A DNA stretch of 64,000 nt from an uncultured Olsenella sp. Lineage in GTDB: Bacteria; Actinomycetota; Coriobacteriia; Coriobacteriales; Atopobiaceae. The stretch spans positions 1 to 64,000 of the forward strand of contig CASEVE010000001.1 of the NCBI GenBank assembly GCA_949291295.1, in the 5' to 3' direction. Shown here in pieces: positions 46,539-56,756 of the stretch (positions are counted from its first letter, which is position 1; each line of letters opens with the position of its first letter). Both the position numbers and the translations under genes were made by a program. The notes under the pieces were generated by a model, which was not told where the DNA came from, ran no database searches, and saw only the letters and a list, made by a program, of their open reading frames with translations.

Positions 46539-47492
46539 TTAGCCGCAAGCCAACAGCTCACCTTCTATTTTATTGAAAACAAGCTGGTAACCCTCAGGGT
46601 ATGTTTTAGCTGGTATCGGTTGATAGTCAACATCAAGTCCATTAAGTGCAATTGCTTTTGCCGATTTTTTTGCATAAGCAATCGTTCGGCGTTTATCGTT
46701 GTCTTCATCTATTATGACATCATAATAGATGATATTGTTTTTAAGCTCTTTATGGGCAGAATCAGCTGTTTCAAAATAGGCCTTTCTAATTGTCAAGAGC
46801 CACCAGAAATCAATCTCTGAGAACCCTAGACCAAATCCAACAATATGAACGTCTGAGGAGAAAAACAGCTCCGGCCAGAGACGCCGATCTTCATTCTCTC
46901 CTGCCACCACAGAGTCAATTGTCTTTGTGGATGACGAGCCCTCCTCTTCTCCCTTCTTTAAGAAGTGGTTTCTCATTTTTTGAACATAGCCAATATAGTG
47001 CTCGTAGCCAATACATATTGATGGGGCTATGTTTTGCTCACCATGCGCGTGAAAAAACCTCACTCCGCTTCGAATGCTCGAAACCTCGAGGGTATATTTC
47101 TTTGTTCCACCCCAAGACGCTTTATATGACTCGGATTCTTCGGGGAATACCTGTTCGAGGCAATAGTCGTAGTTTGTTGTTATCACGTTATCCGGATGGA
47201 TTCCGATTATTCTCCTGTGGGCCTCACCAACGCGCAGTCCCATGCCCTTCAACTCGTCTCGTACCCGTTTCTTTAATTCGGTATAAGGGTCGCTTCCGGC
47301 AGCAGATGATCTAATGCCTCCGCTTGCCCCAATCATCTCAAATTGAATTGGGAGGGGGATGGACTCCTCGTCCAACCCTCCGTCGAGAGTAAGGCAAGGA
47401 GGGCGCAGGCTCTCGATTAAGTCGTTCCAAAAGGCGGCGCCTTCAGCAAGATTGAGCCCATTGCCAATAAGTAGTGTAGTCTGCCGCTTCAC
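46539..47492 (-). CDS. SIR2-like domain protein, last gene of the defence operon
   Basis: 317 residues of the SIR2-like (SIR2_2) type. GNGLN near residue 11 is the nucleotide-binding loop, ITTNYDYCLE (about residue 105) carries the conserved Asn and Asp, FFHAHGE the conserved His, and GFGLGFSEIDFWWLL matches the GxSxxD region. In other defence systems such domains degrade NAD when infection is sensed. The GTG start at 47492 lies 2 nt after the stop of the restriction subunit, so it is part of the operon. Base composition is clearly more AT-rich than in the neighbours, which suggests separate recent origin. Confidence 0.8.
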   Translation of the reverse strand: MKRQTTLLIGNGLNLAEGAAFWNDLIESLRPPCLTLDGGLDEESIPLPIQFEMIGASGGIRSSAAGSDPYTELKKRVRDELKGMGLRVGEAHRRIIGIHPDNVITTNYDYCLEQVFPEESESYKASWGGTKKYTLEVSSIRSGVRFFHAHGEQNIAPSICIGYEHYIGYVQKMRNHFLKKGEEEGSSSTKTIDSVVAGENEDRRLWPELFFSSDVHIVGFGLGFSEIDFWWLLTIRKAYFETADSAHKELKNNIIYYDVIIDEDNDKRRTIAYAKKSAKAIALNGLDVDYQPIPAKTYPEGYQLVFNKIEGELLACG

Positions 47493-47494
47493 GA

Positions 47495-50400
47495 TTACTC
47501 ACCCACAATCCTCAGCAGCTTCTCGAAACTGTCAACCACGTCGTATTGTACGTCGACATCACCCATCTCGTTGAACAGCTTCCTCGCGCACGCGATCTTC
47601 GCCTGCTCTATAGGCCTCAGGTCCAGCGTATTCATTGACCCCTTCGTCTCCGCGACGAAGAACACATGCTTCACACTCCCTTGCTTGAAGGCGATTGCCC
47701 AGTCGGGAGCGTAGTTGCCGACCGGTGTCGGTATCTGGAACGAACGCGGCAGCTTGGCGTAGACGACCACCTCGTCAGCAGCGTCTAGATCCTCGGCAAA
47801 CCGGTGCTCCACGGACTTCACAGCCGTCCCGTCCGGGAACACGTAGTCCTGCACGTTCTTCTTGGAACGGTAGGCGCGCGCCATGCTCTCCGGCATGGTC
47901 TCCGTGAAGATGGCGGCGTCGTAGCGCTCCTCGAGCCGGTTGTAGCTGATGTGCTCCACGATCATCGTCGCTTTCTCGTCGACGATGGCGTCTCCCACCT
48001 TGGCGATAAACTCCTCGGGGTTCTCCTTGAAGAGCGCAAACTTCACGGGGCTCATCTCGGAGAGAATCCTCGCTGCGCTTCGACGGGTGATCTTCGCACG
48101 CTTGGCAACCTCACCCACCAGGTCGTACTTGACGTGGATAGGAGACACCTCGGAGAGGTTGTGCGTCTCAGTTCGCCTCATCTCGAAGTGGCTCTTCGAG
48201 TCAAGCTGCTCGGCGCTCCCCTCCTCGGCCTGTTCGCCCGTGACGATGCGATACGTCACCTTGGAGACCATGAGGTTGCGGTCGATGTTGTCCACCGCCT
48301 TGCGGCGCAGCTCGTCGTCATCAAAGTGAACGGTATAGGCCTGCTTGAAGTTGATCTTGTTCCAGAGCTCCTGGAACTCCCTCTTTCCGAAGTTGTCGTT
48401 CAGGGGGTTGGAGAGGACCTTCGCCTCGAGGCCGTTGCCCACCATGTCATCAAGCACCGAACTGTCAAAGACGCTCGTCAGAGCGGTCTCAATAAGCGGA
48501 AGCTTCTGCTCAATCACCGTGCGCGCGGCAACGGGGAGTGTCTCGATCTCCTCACGCCTGATGCCCTCAGCCTTGAACTTGTCGGTGACGCTGCCGTCGA
48601 GCCCGACGTACTCGAGCTTCACCAGCACGTTGTGCACGAGCTCGGCCTGCTCGCCATCCAGCTCGAGCTTTACGCCGCCCGAGCCAACAAAGTGGAAGTC
48701 CCGGAGGAACTCCCTCGTGACCTTCTTCGGGCGCTCGCGCAGCTCTGCGCGGATGTCCTTCTGCAGGTCGTTCACAAAGCTCGAGTAGCTCTCGGACGCG
48801 ATAACCGTAAGCAGGTTCACCTTCTGGACCATGTCCTCGCCGAGCGCGCCGACGTCCTGACGGTCGCCCTCTTGGTTCACGCACAGGCGCATGCCACGCC
48901 CGACCTCCTGTCGCTTGCTCGTCTCTGAGCCGGACTCCTTGAGCGTGCAGATCTGGAAGACGTTGGGATTGTCCCACCCTTCGCGAAGCGCCGAGTGGGA
49001 GAAGATGAAGCGCGTGGGCTCCTCGAAGGAGAGCAGGCGCTCCTTGTTCTTGAGTATGAGGTCGTAGGCGCTTTCATCATCGGAGCCCTCGGAGCCGCGC
49101 TTGGTGGTGCTGTTAATCGCGTGACCCTTCTTGTCAATCGAGAAGTACCCCTTGTGCACCTGGTTCGGCTTAAACTGCTTGAGATACGAGGCATAGGAGC
49201 CAGGCGCGTCGTCCCCAATGCGGGGTGAGTCGAGACGCTCGGCAACGGCGGCAGCGTACTCCTCCTCAAACACCTTGCCGTAGCCGACCGTCAACTCCTC
49301 TCCGTCATCCGAGTAGACCCGATACTTCGCTACTTCGTCGATGAAGAAGAGCGAGAGGCACTTGATGCCCCGCGAGAAAAGCTGCTCCTCCTTCTGAAGG
49401 TGACTCTTTATGGTCTCGCGAATCTGTACGCGACGGATGTCCTCGCCCGCGGAGTCGCCAACAACCTCGCCGCAACGCAGCTCCTCACCATTGCGGAAGC
49501 GCACGTAGCCAAGGGTGCCATCCTGATCGGCGCGAATCTCAGAGACGACGAAGTCGTTGCGATATGCCTCGAGCTCGCCCGAGGCAACGTAGATGTCGTC
49601 GCCCTCGTTGAACGAGCCGATGACCTTCTTCACGCTGCCGTTGGCCATGAGCTTCTTGAACTCAATGCGCGCGACAGGAGCGGCCTTACTCACCTTGATC
49701 TCCTGCAGGCAGAGGTAACCGTCTGTGCCGCGCATGCCGCGCACCTCGAAGCCCTTGACCTCGATCCGCTTCACGAGACGCATGTTGTAGGCATCGAGCG
49801 CGTCAAGCGCATAGACCTCGTTATGGTGCTCTGCGTGCGTGGCCGAGTAGTTGAGCGAGAAGAGCGGGTGGAACTGCTGCATCGCCTTGCGCGTGGCGCT
49901 GTTCTTCTTCCCCATTTTCTGAGGCTCATCGAGGATGAGGATGGGGTTGGTGGCTGCAAGAACGTCAATGGGGCACCGGCTGCCAAAGTCGTCGCGTTCG
50001 GAGAACATGATGCGGGCGGTCTTGTCTCCCCCGCGCCCCTCCTTGCTCTTGGACTCGTCAAAGGCGTTGAACGCTTGCATGTTGATGACCATGACGGAGA
50101 TGTCACTCCTGCTGGCAAATGCATCAAGCTCGTTCAGGCGCGAGCTGTTGTAGACAAACCACCAGATGCGCTTTCCGTAACGATCGGCAAAGTGTCGCTC
50201 AGTGATAGCGAGCGACTTCGCCACGCCCTCGCGAATGGCGACGCTCGGTACCACGATGATGAACTTGGACCACCCATAGCGCTTGTTGAGCTCGAAGATC
50301 GTCTCGGTGTAGACGTACGTCTTTCCGGTACCCGTCTCCATCTCAACATCCAGTTCGCAAGCGCCGAGCGCATGGCTGAGCTTGATCGAGCGCTCGATGC

Positions 50401-50662
50401 CATTGCGGTCCTGGACCTTCTTGATATTGTCGAGAAGAACGTCGGGGCCCATCGTTAACGAAGCGTTCTTGTAGCCATCGGAAGCATCGGCATCAAGGCT
50501 GTCGAAGTTGCCAATGAACGCCTGGCCTCTCTTGTCATAGAACCCAACTCCCAGGTCTCGAACGAACTGCTGGCCATCAATTTTGGGCTGGCCTTTGAAG
50601 ACATCGGCAACCGCGTCTGCCGCCAAAGTCTGGTACTGCTGGACCTTGAACTTGAACTCCAT
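47495..50662 (-). CDS. Type III restriction subunit (helicase-nuclease, Res)
   Basis: 1,055 residues. Helicase motif I is METGTGKTYV near residue 112, motif II ILDEPQKMG, motif III NYSATH, and motif VI QEVGRGMRL. The C-terminal nuclease is of the PD-(D/E)XK type: the core is NYAPDWAIAF...FFVAETKG. It translocates or switches along DNA and cuts when two unmodified sites face each other, working as a complex with the Mod subunit. The ATG at 50662 is 3 nt past the mod stop. All motifs look intact. Confidence 0.93.
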   Translation of the reverse strand: MEFKFKVQQYQTLAADAVADVFKGQPKIDGQQFVRDLGVGFYDKRGQAFIGNFDSLDADASDGYKNASLTMGPDVLLDNIKKVQDRNGIERSIKLSHALGACELDVEMETGTGKTYVYTETIFELNKRYGWSKFIIVVPSVAIREGVAKSLAITERHFADRYGKRIWWFVYNSSRLNELDAFASRSDISVMVINMQAFNAFDESKSKEGRGGDKTARIMFSERDDFGSRCPIDVLAATNPILILDEPQKMGKKNSATRKAMQQFHPLFSLNYSATHAEHHNEVYALDALDAYNMRLVKRIEVKGFEVRGMRGTDGYLCLQEIKVSKAAPVARIEFKKLMANGSVKKVIGSFNEGDDIYVASGELEAYRNDFVVSEIRADQDGTLGYVRFRNGEELRCGEVVGDSAGEDIRRVQIRETIKSHLQKEEQLFSRGIKCLSLFFIDEVAKYRVYSDDGEELTVGYGKVFEEEYAAAVAERLDSPRIGDDAPGSYASYLKQFKPNQVHKGYFSIDKKGHAINSTTKRGSEGSDDESAYDLILKNKERLLSFEEPTRFIFSHSALREGWDNPNVFQICTLKESGSETSKRQEVGRGMRLCVNQEGDRQDVGALGEDMVQKVNLLTVIASESYSSFVNDLQKDIRAELRERPKKVTREFLRDFHFVGSGGVKLELDGEQAELVHNVLVKLEYVGLDGSVTDKFKAEGIRREEIETLPVAARTVIEQKLPLIETALTSVFDSSVLDDMVGNGLEAKVLSNPLNDNFGKREFQELWNKINFKQAYTVHFDDDELRRKAVDNIDRNLMVSKVTYRIVTGEQAEEGSAEQLDSKSHFEMRRTETHNLSEVSPIHVKYDLVGEVAKRAKITRRSAARILSEMSPVKFALFKENPEEFIAKVGDAIVDEKATMIVEHISYNRLEERYDAAIFTETMPESMARAYRSKKNVQDYVFPDGTAVKSVEHRFAEDLDAADEVVVYAKLPRSFQIPTPVGNYAPDWAIAFKQGSVKHVFFVAETKGSMNTLDLRPIEQAKIACARKLFNEMGDVDVQYDVVDSFEKLLRIVGE

Positions 50663-50665
50663 AAC

Positions 50666-52576
50666 CTAGATCACCTCGACCTCGGTAATGGAGCTGTAGT
50701 TCTTGAAGATCTCAGCGAAGTTCGAGACGGCATCGTCGCCGGCGAAGGAGGCGTCGCGCATGACCGCGTAGTCGGGCTCCATCTTGGCCATTGCCGTCAT
50801 GACCTCGACGGGCACGTCTCTGTCGAAGCAGGCGACAAGACGGCAGCCGTCGACCGAGAAGACCGTGCAGCCATCGACATCAAGCCGCTCGATGGGGGCT
50901 GAGAGTTCAATCTGCTTCTTAAGCATCACTTGGATAATGAGGTCATCCGCTGTGCGCCCCGGTTTGAGGTTGTCCGCCATGCCGGCGAGCATTCGCTGGG
51001 AATACTCCGCGGGTTCTGCGGACACGTCTTCGAAGTTCGAGGAGTCAATCTTGAGTACGCGAAAACCGATATCGGGGACTTTTTTGGACTCAGCGCCGAG
51101 CTCAAGCTGGCGGTTGGATTCCTCTACTTCAGCAACAATCTTCCTGCCAGCACGACGGATGCGCTCCTTACCGATCTCGCAGATGTTTTCGTAGCCCGCC
51201 TTAACCGCCTCGGACTTTTCGTCGCAGAGCTCTGGCAGCTGGACCATGATGAACTTGCGGTTGCCCCCGTCCTCGGCGTTGAGCTGCATGACGGCATGGG
51301 CGGTCGTGGCTGATCCGGAGAAGAAATCGAGAATGAGTGCGTCCCGCTCACAGAATCTCATCATGCGAGTTATCAACCGAGTTAACTTCGCAGTATCAAA
51401 AACGCGAGAATCAAACAGGCCTGCTATCTCCGATGAAGAGCCGACGAGCAAATCTGTCCACGAGCTATTCAGCAGGGTCATATCTGTAGGGGGAATATAG
51501 TGTTCAGGCTTCCCGCTCTTGGACAGTCTTAGCAAATCGCAGTTATTTCCTTTTTTGTGATACCAGTCATCAATCTGCCCGTCACTCGGATTATCCGTTC
51601 CCATGTCTTTAAGCAGACACCTATAATTCTCGATTGCGCGCTGACTTCTCTCCTCGCTCCACCGCCATTGTCCTGACGTAGGGGTAATTCCAAAGAGCTC
51701 ATAGCGCATCGTAGGGCGATTCGACCCTCTCCAATGATTGTTCCAAGCCCCCTTTTTGCATGAAGCCAGCTTCTTGAATTGGGTCGGAAACCTATAGTCA
51801 GCTTTTTTTGAGAAGAGCAGCACGTATTCGAAATCTTTCCCCAAGCGCTCGCATGTCTCAAACTGAGCTTGAACCGACTTTGCGCCCCTTCTTACAACAA
51901 TCGAATTCCTAAAATTACTCATTCCGAATATTTCAACGCAAATATCTATCAGAGTATTAATCTCCTCGTCACCCATGCTGATGAACAGTAGCCCGTCCTC
52001 GCTCAGTAGGTCCCTCGCGAGCAGCAGACGCGGGTACATCATCGAGCACCAGTCGGAGTGGAAGCGGCCGTTGGACTCGGGGTTGGCGACGAGGCGGCCT
52101 CCCTCCTCGTCGTAGTCGCCGCTCTCTGCGTCGTAGTCGGCCTTCGTCTGCGCGAAGTCGTCGTCGTAGATGAAGTCATGACCCGTGTTGTAGGGCGGAT
52201 CGATGTAAATCATCTTGACCTTGCCAGCGTAGGTATTGCGCAGGAGCTTGAGCGCATCGAGGTTGTCGCCCTCGATGTAGAGGTTGCCGGTCGTGTCCCA
52301 ATTCACGCTCTCCTCGGGGCACGGGCGCAGGCACTTGTCGATCTGGCGGTACGCCTCCTGCTTGGCCTCTCGCTTACCCGGCCAGGTGAACTGGTAGCGC
52401 TCGCGCTGGCCCTCGGCGACGTCACCCACGCGCTCCTTCAGCGCGTCGACGTCGACGGTGCGGCGAAGGCTCCCGTCGGGCTCGCGGACCTCGGTCACGA
52501 CCTCGGGGAAGAGCTCTGCCAGCCTCTCGACATTCTCGTCGATGATGCTCTCGGTGGTGTGAGACAGCTTCTCCAT
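50666..52576 (-). CDS. Type III DNA methyltransferase (Mod)
   Basis: 636 residues. The catalytic motif IV is IDPPYNTGHDF near residue 123 and the S-adenosylmethionine motif LDFFSGSATTAHAV near residue 425; this order marks the beta class used by type III systems, which methylates adenine N6. Between the two motifs, residues about 210-400 form the target recognition domain. That middle section (about 51370-51960) is more AT-rich than the flanks. The stop of the DUF4391 gene and the mod ATG share a base (TGATG), so translation is coupled. Confidence 0.94.
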   Translation of the reverse strand: MEKLSHTTESIIDENVERLAELFPEVVTEVREPDGSLRRTVDVDALKERVGDVAEGQRERYQFTWPGKREAKQEAYRQIDKCLRPCPEESVNWDTTGNLYIEGDNLDALKLLRNTYAGKVKMIYIDPPYNTGHDFIYDDDFAQTKADYDAESGDYDEEGGRLVANPESNGRFHSDWCSMMYPRLLLARDLLSEDGLLFISMGDEEINTLIDICVEIFGMSNFRNSIVVRRGAKSVQAQFETCERLGKDFEYVLLFSKKADYRFPTQFKKLASCKKGAWNNHWRGSNRPTMRYELFGITPTSGQWRWSEERSQRAIENYRCLLKDMGTDNPSDGQIDDWYHKKGNNCDLLRLSKSGKPEHYIPPTDMTLLNSSWTDLLVGSSSEIAGLFDSRVFDTAKLTRLITRMMRFCERDALILDFFSGSATTAHAVMQLNAEDGGNRKFIMVQLPELCDEKSEAVKAGYENICEIGKERIRRAGRKIVAEVEESNRQLELGAESKKVPDIGFRVLKIDSSNFEDVSAEPAEYSQRMLAGMADNLKPGRTADDLIIQVMLKKQIELSAPIERLDVDGCTVFSVDGCRLVACFDRDVPVEVMTAMAKMEPDYAVMRDASFAGDDAVSNFAEIFKNYSSITEVEVI

Positions 52577-53190
52577 CAGGACTCTCCCTCCAGACGGGAC
52601 AGCTCAGCCTCGATCGCGCGCTTGCGGTCGAAGAGGGCGTTCCTCTTGGCAATTTGCTTTTCTGATTTGCGTTTCCGTTCAACCTGCTCGAGCTCGAGCA
52701 GCAGCGCTTCACTTCTCCTCTTGCGCTCGAGGCGACCGTCGAGGTCAACGGGACTAGCGCTGCCGAAAACTACTTGGGACGAAATCGAGTCCCACAGCTC
52801 CCCTAAAGTCGATCCCACCAACTCAAGCTTGGCGCTATCGGTCGACATCCATTCCGTCTCATAGAGGCGGTCTCGCCTGACAAGCAGCTTGCAGGACTCG
52901 TCCGTTAGACAAACGAAGAGCAGCTTGTTAGGTATCGAACGGGCAACCAGCTCGATTGCCTCGTAGGGAACGTTGGCACCCTTGAGGTGGAGCGCGAGAA
53001 CGTCTATCTCCGCCACGTCCTTGTCACCAGGGATGTGAATGCTGGCCTCCTTGATGGAGGCGACCATCTCGATGCGCTCAATCTGCTGGACGAACTGCTC
53101 CTTGATGGCAGCCGTCGTCTTAAGGTGCTCGTAGAACACCTTCTTGGGCATCACGCGGTTGACGAGCACCGTGCTCGGCAGGTTAAGCAC
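52576..53190 (-). CDS. DUF4391 domain protein
   Basis: 204 residues. The N-terminus (LNLPSTVLVNRVMPKKVFYEHL) and the following IPGDKDVAEIDVLALHLK segment are typical of DUF4391, a family of unknown function found beside type III-like methyltransferases and helicases. The C-terminal third (about 140-204) is charged and probably coiled-coil (ELEQVERKRKSEKQIAKRNA). The GTG start overlaps the helicase stop by 8 nt. It may link the helicase to Mod; that is inference from position. Confidence 0.82.
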   Translation of the reverse strand: MLNLPSTVLVNRVMPKKVFYEHLKTTAAIKEQFVQQIERIEMVASIKEASIHIPGDKDVAEIDVLALHLKGANVPYEAIELVARSIPNKLLFVCLTDESCKLLVRRDRLYETEWMSTDSAKLELVGSTLGELWDSISSQVVFGSASPVDLDGRLERKRRSEALLLELEQVERKRKSEKQIAKRNALFDRKRAIEAELSRLEGES

Positions 53191-56100
53191 GAGGCCTCAC
53201 CACCAGGAAGCAGACGAGCTCGAAGTCGTCGAGGCCGGCGACGTCGTTCTCGAGGAAGCTTGTGGTGCCGCCGGAGAAGAAGCTGTCGAGGTCGGCCTCG
53301 GCCTTTTCCTCCACGATCGACTCGATGGCACTGCGCAACAGGCCCGATGCGGCGCGCATGTCTCGCCCGTTCTTCGTGGCTTTGTTGTAGGCGCGGCAAA
53401 GTGCTGCGTCAGGCTCGGACTTGCCCTTGCACAGGCGTCTCATGGCGTCGAGAGACTCCTTGGGATCGAGGTAGCCGTGCACGACCTCGCCCTCGTTGCT
53501 CACGTACACCAGGTAGAACGGGTGAATCTGGTTGCGCGTCTTGGCGTCGAGCTCCTGGTTCACGTTGCGGAGCACAAAGATGATGCCTGGCGCGTCACCC
53601 TCCACCACGGCATCAATGCCCGTGGGAACGCTGTCGATGTTCGGGTTCTCCTGGTAGTAGGAGACCAGGTCCATACGGAAGTCGTTGAGGCCAAGGTCAG
53701 TGATGGAGACGCCGCCCGAGACGTCCTCGAGATCCACGACCTCGTGCTTCATCTGCTCGAGCTGCTGCTTGCGGTATTCGAGGTCGCCCTTCTCGTCCTC
53801 GTTGATGTAGTCGTCGTCGCCAGTCGAGGTCATGACGACGACGTGCATGCGGTTCTCGACGCGCGCCTTGAGGTTGATGTAGTTGTCCAGATCATCATCG
53901 GGCCAGAAGTTGACGAGCTGAATGACGTCGTTCTTGGAACCGATACGGTCCACGCGACCAAAGCGCTGGACGATGCGCACCGGGTTCCAGTGGATGTCGT
54001 AGTTCACGAGATAGTCGCAGTCCTGGAGGTTCTGGCCCTCAGAGATGCAGTCCGTTGCGATGAGGATGTCAATATCCTTACCGCGCAGGCGCGGGTAGAC
54101 TTTGTCGCGGTCCTTTGAGACGGGTGAGAAGCAGGTGAGAATCTCGGAGAGATCACCGCGAACCCCGTCAACGCTGGTCTTGCCGCCGCCCGATCCGGTG
54201 ACCTCCGCCACCCCCAAGCCGAGCTCACGGGATGCGAACTCAGAAACGTGCTCATAAAGGTAATTCGCAGTGTCAGCGAAGGCGGTGAAGACAATGACTT
54301 TCTTGTTGCCCGGGTTGATGGGGTTCTCGACCTTCTCGGCAATGAGTCGTTCGAGGCGCAGGAGCTTGTCGTCGTGCTCGGCGTCGATACCCCGAATCAT
54401 CTCGAGCAGGCCCTCGATGGTCTGGGCGTCGTCTCGAACGTCCTTCTCCCAGCTCTTCCAATCGAGATCACGGAGGTCGAACTGCGTCTTGCCGCCCACA
54501 GAGAAGTCCATGAAGTCAGCGTCCTCGTAGTCGAGGTCAAAACCGTCGCCATAAGCGGACGAATCGATACTCTTGGAGACAGCTCCCTCGGCCTTGAACA
54601 CCTCAATGGTATTGAGGCACTGGTTCATGACCGAGAAGACGCGCTCAAGCGTGAGTCTGAACGACGAGATAGAGCTCTCGAGACGCTTGAGCAGGTTGGC
54701 GGCCATGAGCTTGCGGACACCCGTCTCACGACCGCTCGTGGTGAGGTTGCCGTTCTTGTCCTCGTACTTGCCTCGAGCCGAAGCCAACAGATAATGCGAG
54801 GGAATGTAAACCGCAAGCTTAAGCAGATCAAGCGAGTTGGCAATCTCGCTGTATGTAGTGCTGTTGGGTAGCGTTGAGAGCTTGGGGTAAATCGAGATGG
54901 GGTCGTTGCGACGCGGGAACGGACCGATGGCGCTCACGTCGTAGTAGCGCTGAATGTGCTTGCGCGAACGGGCAACCGTCACCTGGTCGAGGACCTTGAA
55001 GAAGTCGAAGTCGAGCGAGTCGGTGAGCGCCTCGGTGCTGCGCTCCTCAGCGGGAAGCTTGGACCAGACCGTGAAGGCGCCCTGGGCGCTCTTGAAGACG
55101 TCCTCTATGTTGGAAGAGAGCCCCAGCTTCTCCGACCACCCAGCCGGATCTCCCTGATAGGCAAGCCTCAGCTGGTTGCGCAGGTCACGGAAACGGTTGT
55201 TGACGGGAGTAGCGGAGAGCATGAGAACCTTGGTGGGGACTCCACCGCGAATGACGTGGTTGATCAGACGCTGATAGCGGTTCTCGGTGCCACCTGTCCC
55301 GTCGTCCTTTGCCGCAGTTGCCGTGTCCTCACCGTTGCGGAAGTTGTGGGACTCGTCGATGACAACAAGGTCATATCCGCCCCAGTTGATTGTCTCCAAG
55401 TCCATGCCCGTGACGGTCTTGCCTCGCTTGCGCGAAAGGTCGGTGTGATAGAGCACGTCATAGCGGAGACGATCGCTGGCAATGGGATTGTTGACCTGGT
55501 TGTTGCGATACATCGTCCAGTTATCAGAAAGCTTCTTTGGACAGAGGACGAGCACGTTGCGATTGAGCGACTCGTAGTACTTGATGACGGCGAGCGCCGT
55601 AAACGTCTTGCCAAGGCCCACGCTGTCAGCCAGGATACAGCCATCGTAGGTCTGGAGCTTGTTGATGATGGCAAGAACCGCATCCCTCTGGAAGTCATAG
55701 AGGAGGTTCCAAATGGCGCTTTCGCGAAAGCCGGCACCCTCCTTGGGAAGGTTGTCCGCCGAGACGTCATCGAGGAACTCATGGAAGATTCGATAGAGCG
55801 CAGCATAGTAGATGAGCTCGGGCGCATTCTCCCGATACATTGCCTGGATGTTGTCCACGACTGTATCCGTGACGTCTTCCAGTCCTCCGTTTTCCCATGC
55901 TTGATCGAACATGGCAAGGAACTGTCGAGACGTCGAGGTGTCGAGACGTGATACACCCGTCACAGTGGGGTGATCACCCACACCAAGCTCTCCCACCGTA
56001 AAGCACTGGAAGGGCATGTAGGTAGACGCGTCTCCTTTTCCGCTCACAGTCAGGGCGGGCGCAACAGGTGCCTGACCGGTTATCGCGGACCTAAAACGAG

Positions 56101-56440
56101 CCCTCTTCCTAATCCAGCTCGCACATTCCGACGCAACGGCTTTCTGGGTAAGCTCGTTGCGGAGCTTGATCTCGAACTCTGTGCCGTAGAGCCCCTGCTC
56201 GCGCGAAAGGCGCGGGATGTAGAACTCGCGCTGCTCCTTCTTGGCGCGTTCCTTGGCAAAAGTCGGCTCGGTGTAGATGAACCGAAACTCTTCGAGCAAC
56301 TCAAGCTGTTCGCGAAGCTCGTTGAATGCGTACATCGAGAACACCGATGCCGCCACGGAAACGGTATCTCCCTCTCGTATGACCTTGACGAGGTCATCTT
56401 TGAGAATGCTGGTCTTGTTGTCGAAGAAGGCGTTGTCCAT
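53183..56440 (-). CDS. SNF2-type helicase with PLD-like N-terminus
   Basis: 1,085 residues. Helicase motif I is DSVGLGKTF near residue 273, motif II VIDESHNF, motif III LSATPVNNRF, and motif VI QRFGRVDRIGS, so the ATPase should be active. Residues 1-120 resemble the phospholipase-D-like N-terminal part of related helicases, but I do not see the HxKxxxxD nuclease motif. It is the first large gene of the five-gene operon. The ATG at 56440 lies 3 nt after the stop of the 35-codon leader ORF, in the same frame. Function with Mod/Res is unproven; anti-phage activity is the likely role. Confidence 0.9.
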   Translation of the reverse strand: MDNAFFDNKTSILKDDLVKVIREGDTVSVAASVFSMYAFNELREQLELLEEFRFIYTEPTFAKERAKKEQREFYIPRLSREQGLYGTEFEIKLRNELTQKAVASECASWIRKRARFRSAITGQAPVAPALTVSGKGDASTYMPFQCFTVGELGVGDHPTVTGVSRLDTSTSRQFLAMFDQAWENGGLEDVTDTVVDNIQAMYRENAPELIYYAALYRIFHEFLDDVSADNLPKEGAGFRESAIWNLLYDFQRDAVLAIINKLQTYDGCILADSVGLGKTFTALAVIKYYESLNRNVLVLCPKKLSDNWTMYRNNQVNNPIASDRLRYDVLYHTDLSRKRGKTVTGMDLETINWGGYDLVVIDESHNFRNGEDTATAAKDDGTGGTENRYQRLINHVIRGGVPTKVLMLSATPVNNRFRDLRNQLRLAYQGDPAGWSEKLGLSSNIEDVFKSAQGAFTVWSKLPAEERSTEALTDSLDFDFFKVLDQVTVARSRKHIQRYYDVSAIGPFPRRNDPISIYPKLSTLPNSTTYSEIANSLDLLKLAVYIPSHYLLASARGKYEDKNGNLTTSGRETGVRKLMAANLLKRLESSISSFRLTLERVFSVMNQCLNTIEVFKAEGAVSKSIDSSAYGDGFDLDYEDADFMDFSVGGKTQFDLRDLDWKSWEKDVRDDAQTIEGLLEMIRGIDAEHDDKLLRLERLIAEKVENPINPGNKKVIVFTAFADTANYLYEHVSEFASRELGLGVAEVTGSGGGKTSVDGVRGDLSEILTCFSPVSKDRDKVYPRLRGKDIDILIATDCISEGQNLQDCDYLVNYDIHWNPVRIVQRFGRVDRIGSKNDVIQLVNFWPDDDLDNYINLKARVENRMHVVVMTSTGDDDYINEDEKGDLEYRKQQLEQMKHEVVDLEDVSGGVSITDLGLNDFRMDLVSYYQENPNIDSVPTGIDAVVEGDAPGIIFVLRNVNQELDAKTRNQIHPFYLVYVSNEGEVVHGYLDPKESLDAMRRLCKGKSEPDAALCRAYNKATKNGRDMRAASGLLRSAIESIVEEKAEADLDSFFSGGTTSFLENDVAGLDDFELVCFLVVRPRA

Positions 56441-56443
56441 CCG

Positions 56444-56551
56444 TTACGCCACCCCCTCGGAGCGGCGCGACGGAATGTGCAGGATTAGTCGGACTCCCCT
56501 ACTCGGAGAACCCCCCCCCGCTATTATTTTGCAGGTCACATGCTCAAACAT
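56444..56551 (-). CDS. Leader ORF (35 aa) with a G9 tract, upstream of helicase
   Basis: Short ORF with a strong ribosome binding site (AAAAGGAGCGAG before the ATG at 56551). It begins MFEHVTCKIIAGGGS, where the glycines come from the G9 run, and stops at TAA at 56444-56446, 3 nt before the helicase ATG. With the run at 9 it reads to that stop; with 8 it stops at 56485-56487, with 10 at 56499-56501. So ribosomes would reach the helicase start only in one of the three states. I infer translational coupling under phase control; the peptide itself shows no domain. Confidence 0.6.
   Translation of the reverse strand: MFEHVTCKIIAGGGSPSRGVRLILHIPSRRSEGVA
56511..56519 (-). repeat. Homopolymer tract of nine G (coding strand)
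   Basis: Nine C on the plus strand, so nine G on the strand of the defence operon, about 71 nt before the helicase start and inside the leader ORF. It is the longest single-base run I noticed in the window. Runs of this length are prone to slippage during replication. A weak promoter (TTTGAG-16-TAATAG) lies just upstream. Confidence 0.85.
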
Positions 56552-56756
56552 GTACTCGCTCCTTTTGGTGCTGGCACGCATTTATCATTGCAAAGCGCCA
56601 GACATAAGTTCAACTCTCCTAATGATATAGGTTGGAGCGGCTGCGGTGTGTAAGACCCTTCAGCGGCGCTCAACAGCTGAATCCAACGGTAACGATAGAC
56701 TCTTGCATATTGTTGATACAACATCGTGAACGGTAGCGGCGAAGCTTGCCCCTGAG

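Follow-up and report, generated by a model that had tools for sequence, protein, structure and literature searches.

A short leader open reading frame (ORF) containing an uninterrupted run of nine guanines (G9) was identified directly upstream of a type III restriction-modification (R-M) operon in an uncultured Olsenella sp. (Thermophilibacter/Olsenella, class Coriobacteriia). The analyzed DNA, referred to here as the window, is a stretch of 64,000 nt (GenBank assembly GCA_949291295.1, contig CASEVE010000001.1, positions 1 to 64,000), and both the leader and the operon are encoded on its minus strand. A preliminary description of this DNA had reported a 35-codon ORF with a ribosome-binding site, a G9 tract and a TAA located 3 nt 5' of the ATG of the first operon gene (a helicase), and had proposed that the tract is a phase switch. 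All of these structural elements were confirmed by reading of the sequence. The features of the leader region are as follows, where the nine loci are the window and eight related species.

56559..56566, minus strand: leader Shine-Dalgarno (SD) sequence, AAAAGGAG, 7 nt 5' of the leader ATG; read directly
56551 to 56444, minus strand: leader ORF, 35 codons plus stop, MFEHVTCKIIAGGGSPSRGVRLILHIPSRRSEGVA; read directly
56511..56519, minus strand: G9 tract, the proposed slippage site setting the leader frame
56498..56510, minus strand: TTCTCCGAGTAGG block 3' of the tract, which holds the TAG used at G7 or G10; invariant in 9 of 9 loci
56485..56488, minus strand: CTAA (CTAG in relatives), the stop used at G8 or G11
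56440..56474, minus strand: hairpin burying the operon SD sequence and the leader stop; predicted fold
56459-56468 and 56446-56455, minus strand: arms of the 10-bp hairpin core, with the loop GAG at 56456-56458
56452..56458, minus strand: GAGGGGG, SD-like site of the first operon gene, in the hairpin loop and 3' arm; read directly, invariant in 9 of 9 loci

The leader stop codon (TAA, 56446-56444) is followed by CGG and then by the helicase ATG at 56440. The leader shares the reading frame of the helicase, and its stop codon is the sole separation between the two. The stop of the G8/G11 frame is located 44 nt before the helicase ATG in the window and 41 nt before the operon start at the loci carrying a bacteriophage exclusion (BREX) operon, and that of the G7/G10 frame is located 58 and 55 nt before these starts, respectively. 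The distances in the window bear out the earlier estimate of about 45-60 nt. No intrinsic terminator was detected near the leader by a simple scan. A G-quadruplex at the leader was considered and rejected, because the second G-run (GGGG, 56496-56499) is interrupted (GGAG) in most relatives.

The last third of the leader forms the predicted stem of the hairpin, which the preliminary description did not mention. The core pairing is kept in 90 of 90 cells across the nine loci, and the five pairs that vary do so only by G-C/G-U or A-U/G-U changes. The minimum free energy of the 39 nt leading to the start codon ranges from -18.8 to -28.4 kcal/mol in the nine loci, compared with -8.6 kcal/mol on average and -16.5 kcal/mol at the lowest at the starts of 63 other genes with a recognizable SD sequence from the same loci. 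The hairpin is therefore more stable in all nine loci than at any of the control starts. Off-frame ribosomes would stop short of the hairpin base by at least about 10 nt, and the on-frame path runs through the hairpin. This predicted SD-sequestering hairpin makes the case for a switch stronger.

Conservation of the leader and variation of the tract

The genome of the window was compared with the genomes of 30 other species of the same genus. The leader is present in eight of these 30 species, and the relatives, matched by exact search of named genomes, belong to Thermophilibacter/Olsenella (T. gallinarum, T. provencensis, Olsenella sp. An270 and An290, and several metagenome-assembled genomes). 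All nine loci retain the leader GGAG, the 7-nt SD spacing, the start codon, a pure G9 or G10, TTCTCCGAGTAGG after the tract, the end CGAGGGGGTGGCGTA(A/G) and a phase-normalized leader length of 108 nt. Both out-of-frame stops are also retained in all nine, one of them being TAA in the window and TAG elsewhere. In the normalized frame, the distance from the leader stop to the downstream start is 3 nt (helicase) or 0 nt (brxA, GTG) at every locus.

The leader peptide is not conserved as a protein. Changes at the 12 variable codons after the tract are synonymous in one case and nonsynonymous in 11, and a conserved peptide function was rejected as synonymous changes are not in excess. On the evidence of these alignments, the conserved property is the translatability of the leader and the position of its end, not the peptide.

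Tract length varies among the nine assemblies. Six loci combine 32 nt before the tract with G9 and are in frame, and one locus combines 32 nt with G10 and is out of frame. In G013, 31 nt precede a G9 tract and the leader is out of frame. In G008, 31 nt precede a G10 tract, so that the base lost before the tract is offset by the tenth G and the frame is restored. In total, seven loci are coupled (ON) and two are out of frame (OFF), and the tract is G9 in seven of the nine. The leaders of G013 and G008 differ by one single nucleotide polymorphism and one G across about 270 nt and are otherwise identical, and four mismatches and one G separate those of G011 and G004. Tract length thus differs more between close relatives than does the flanking DNA.

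An exact scan of 84,980 species genomes with the leader core returned eight Thermophilibacter/Olsenella loci. A wider leader family was rejected, since the seven matches in other taxa and the one match on a viral contig lacked the remaining leader. The leader was found with all close homologues of the helicase (6 of 6, identity of at least 93%) and of BrxA (3 of 3). It was not found at any distant helicase or BrxA homologue, and no G-runs of at least 7 were seen in the distant helicase loci examined. In one of these genomes (G005, L109:about 1290-1490), the start codon of a helicase with 62% identity overlaps the stop codon of a small gene in front of it (ATGA), and no tract is present. Coupling of the helicase to a small upstream ORF thus also occurs tract-free.

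Defence operons downstream of the leader

The operon behind the leader in the window is composed of five genes.

53183..56440, minus strand: gene 1, SNF2-like helicase, 1085 aa (PF00176, PF00271, PADLOC C3a139)
52576..53190, minus strand: gene 2, DUF4391 protein (PF14335), overlapping gene 1 by 8 nt
50666..52576, minus strand: gene 3, type III Mod methyltransferase (MTase_III, 1.5e-189), overlapping gene 2 by 1 nt (TGATG)
47495..50662, minus strand: gene 4, type III Res (REase_III, 5.6e-277), 3 nt after mod
46539..47492, minus strand: gene 5, SIR2-like protein (PF13289, SIR2_2), 2 nt after res

Mod and Res are adjacent (3 nt apart) and match the PADLOC profiles MTase_III and REase_III, as in a type III R-M system. 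The leader precedes an operon encoding the SNF2 helicase, the DUF4391 protein, Mod and Res in six species (that of the window and five relatives). In three other relatives, it precedes a BREX operon, with BrxA present in all three. Of the BREX type 1 set (BrxA, BrxB, BrxC, PglX, PglZ and BrxL), BrxA, BrxB, BrxC, PglX (as two ORFs) and PglZ of G025 were matched by PADLOC profiles, whereas BrxL of G003 was judged from the sequence of the ORF start and not by a hidden Markov model, and the contig of G027 ends inside the operon. The PglX of the BREX operon (L138:2567-11724 and L137) is split into two ORFs, which cover positions 1-869 and 877-1170 of the profile. Between them are a SIR2-like gene and two further ORFs, one of about 1140 aa, and the arrangement in G003 is similar.

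The DNA of G003 (BREX) and that of G004 (type III) show 97% identity over the 238 nt upstream and 94% identity from the tract to the leader stop. Their homology ends exactly at the leader stop codon, and the DNA beyond it is unrelated. The occurrence of the leader ahead of BREX, which the preliminary description did not mention, likewise makes the case for a switch stronger. The chances are about even that the leader, with its tract, hairpin and stop, is a portable phase-switch module. The leader would then be a docking site at whose stop codon unrelated defence operons are exchanged, and a newly acquired defence would become phase-variable at once.

Neither a run of at least 7 G/C or at least 8 A/T nor a di- to hexanucleotide array of at least 5 copies was found in mod, and no other runs of at least 7 G/C or at least 8 A/T were found in the surrounding sequence covered at each locus (13-29 kb). 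With no further homopolymer in these stretches, mod and pglX are therefore without a switch of their own. The repeat in mod or its promoter that defines a phasevarion is absent here.

Proposed translational switch and rival explanations

A slippage-driven translational switch, in which the frame of the leader sets whether the first defence gene is translated, is the probable explanation of the locus. Replication slippage would add or drop a G and so set the frame in which ribosomes exit the tract. In the ON frame, all 35 codons would be translated, the hairpin over the SD sequence of the first gene would be melted, and ribosomes would stop 3 nt before the helicase ATG (0 nt before the brxA GTG), after which they would re-initiate or new 30S subunits would bind. 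In either OFF frame, ribosomes would stop 41-58 nt upstream, ahead of the hairpin, which would stay shut and leave the first gene poorly translated. The leader peptide itself would be functionless, and the act of translation would be what counts. The downstream genes, which overlap or abut, would follow the first gene. An effect on the later genes is likely because the genes overlap by 8 and 1 nt or are located 3 and 2 nt apart. We infer switching within a strain, the size of the ON/OFF effect and its propagation down the operon.

The comparative pattern supports a putative frame-based phase switch in a leader coupled to the operon, as the preliminary description had proposed. Length variation of the tract, the compensating G, the kept off-frame stops and the tract-free mod, res and BREX genes all argue for it. 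Also in its favour, the MutS_I domain had no match in the genome of the window, in a search whose control was positive in 11 of 14 genomes.

Several observations weigh against this switch. Because the nine loci share ancestry, the count of seven in-frame leaders among nine does not amount to nine independent events. Tract-length change was seen only between species, and a one-base homopolymer assembly error may be present in any single genome. The 3' arm of the hairpin is invariant and no two-sided compensatory changes occur; the evidence for the hairpin is therefore its retained pairing and its stability, with no contribution from covariation. A simple scan near the leader detected no sigma-70-like promoter, the pair TTGAAC-N18-AATGAT at 56613-56584 being a promoter candidate only. 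The absence of MutS is not certain, because the genome of the window is about 91% complete.

Three other explanations were weighed. A recoding site would give the same anatomy if RNA polymerase or the ribosome slipped on the G-run in every cell, so that a constant fraction reached the hairpin at any DNA length. Homopolymers of 9-10 bases can induce slippage during transcription or on the ribosome, and a tract of 9 in seven of the nine loci is more uniform than the promoter-type G-tract of the genus (8-12). Recoding is nevertheless unlikely, given that the length differs between near-identical leaders, that the restored frame of the 31+10 locus points to an importance of frame, and that genetic switching by G-tracts of comparable length is known in a defence gene of Streptomyces. 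In a static, attenuator-like arrangement, the leader and hairpin would couple translation to another signal, and the G-run would be a glycine-rich stretch slipping by neutral drift. A leader ORF with an SD-burying hairpin is a common design of translational control, and seven of the nine loci are in the coupled frame. Set against this, the homopolymer is pure in all nine loci although the third positions of GGN codons are free to drift and the preceding codons have strongly diverged. Two genomes are out of frame and no conserved peptide or regulatory codon run is found in the leader, which makes a static leader quite unlikely.

The remaining explanation is a chance ORF, that is, an untranslated 5' leader with a G-run in which the apparent coupling would be a coincidence or an assembly artefact. 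Under a first-order Markov model derived from the window, about 0.5 G-runs of at least 9 are expected per 64 kb, or about 16 per genome, and significance of the G9 on its own was rejected on this basis. The observed distribution of run lengths drops faster than the model, with 67 runs of 5, three of 6, none of 7-8 and one of 9 on both strands of the window, and runs of at least 6 are rarer than predicted. The whole genome contains 30 G7, seven G8 and eight runs of at least 9 G, two of the last being low-complexity sequence at contig ends. Short ORFs are common, the simple Markov model permits such a G-run and the leader peptide shows no purifying selection. A chance ORF is nonetheless highly improbable, as nine species retain the SD sequence, start, spacing, 108-nt normalized length and stop position as well as the two off-frame stops, and as the module terminates at its own stop codon before two different operons. 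In the comparison of the loci, the above-chance feature is conservation, with a pure G9 or G10 in all nine together with the start, SD spacing, length and stop position.

Other G-tracts of the genus and known phase-variable systems

The genus appears to be G-tract-rich, and G-runs of at least 9 that fit the pattern were found in 30 of the 31 genomes. In 16 genomes, a second genus-wide tract (8-12 G) separates a TTG element from a TAnAAT element in front of an ATP-binding cassette (ABC) transporter ATPase gene. The spacer is 17-22 nt in these genomes, and the tract is a candidate promoter-spacer phase switch. The sites are L013:5933-5942 (in the window's own genome, C15), L073, L074, L076, L078, L080, L082, L085-L089, L093, L094, L098 and L102. 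Another G9 in the same genome (L014:7986-7994, C15) is located at about codon 74 of a 2738-codon stop-to-stop frame with a signal-peptide-like start, and this frame is a candidate phase-variable surface protein. In L099 (about 1499, minus strand), a G9 is present in a short ORF that, at G8 or G11, would read in frame into the start of a secreted protein. This may be a further switch of the leader or N-terminal type. At least 8 G followed by TTCTC was found at 33 places in 22 of the 31 genomes, and the reversed pattern was found 0 times. The contexts include unrelated loci (promoter-like, coding and leader), and TTCTC after the tract was accordingly rejected as a signature specific to the leader.

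Type III systems are often phase-variable via repeat tracts, usually inside mod. The phasevarions of Haemophilus, Neisseria and Helicobacter (type III mod) share with the present locus a type III R-M system and proposed switching by slippage in a simple repeat. Here, in contrast, the repeat is carried by a separate leader ORF before the helicase that heads the operon, not by mod or its promoter. In Neisseria porA and opc, a homopolymer tract is located in the promoter spacer, and its length is an expression switch outside the coding gene, whereas the leader tract here would act via the reading frame. A promoter-spacer type like that of porA/opc also seems to be present in this genus, upstream of the ABC transporter gene. 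SD-sequestering hairpins that are opened by translation of a leader are known from erm-type leaders and ribosomal-protein operons. In these, and by the proposed model also in the present leader, access to the downstream start needs a ribosome that reaches and opens the hairpin, but the deciding variable here would be heritable tract length and not a drug, amino acid or protein.

Phase variation of Pgl/BREX involves a G-tract in Streptomyces coelicolor pglX and a homopolymer in brxX (PMC4365076; PMC6326788). The 8-G tract of Streptomyces pglX, a BREX relative, contracts and expands, switching phage resistance at 1e-2 to 1e-4 (PMC4365076). An actinobacterial G-tract and phage defence are shared with the present case, in which BREX is one of two cargoes. 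The Pgl/BREX tract disrupts the methyltransferase gene itself, whereas the present one is located ahead of the operon and would shut it off starting with the first gene.

No clear precedent for a phase-variable leader with coupling to the gene behind it was found in the open-access literature, subscription papers not being covered. The new part would be a phase-variable leader that acts by translational coupling and is common to unrelated defence operons. Its nearest counterparts in function are the type III mod and pglX tracts, which are located within the enzyme genes or a promoter.

In the phase-variable defences known so far, a single enzyme gene is disrupted at a time. If the proposed switch is true, the leader tract would shut off an entire operon beginning with the first gene and avoid incomplete systems such as Res lacking Mod, and it would serve any cargo placed behind the leader. 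Leader switches of this class could be widespread and uncounted, because such leaders are passed over in gene prediction and phase variation is looked for inside genes or promoters.
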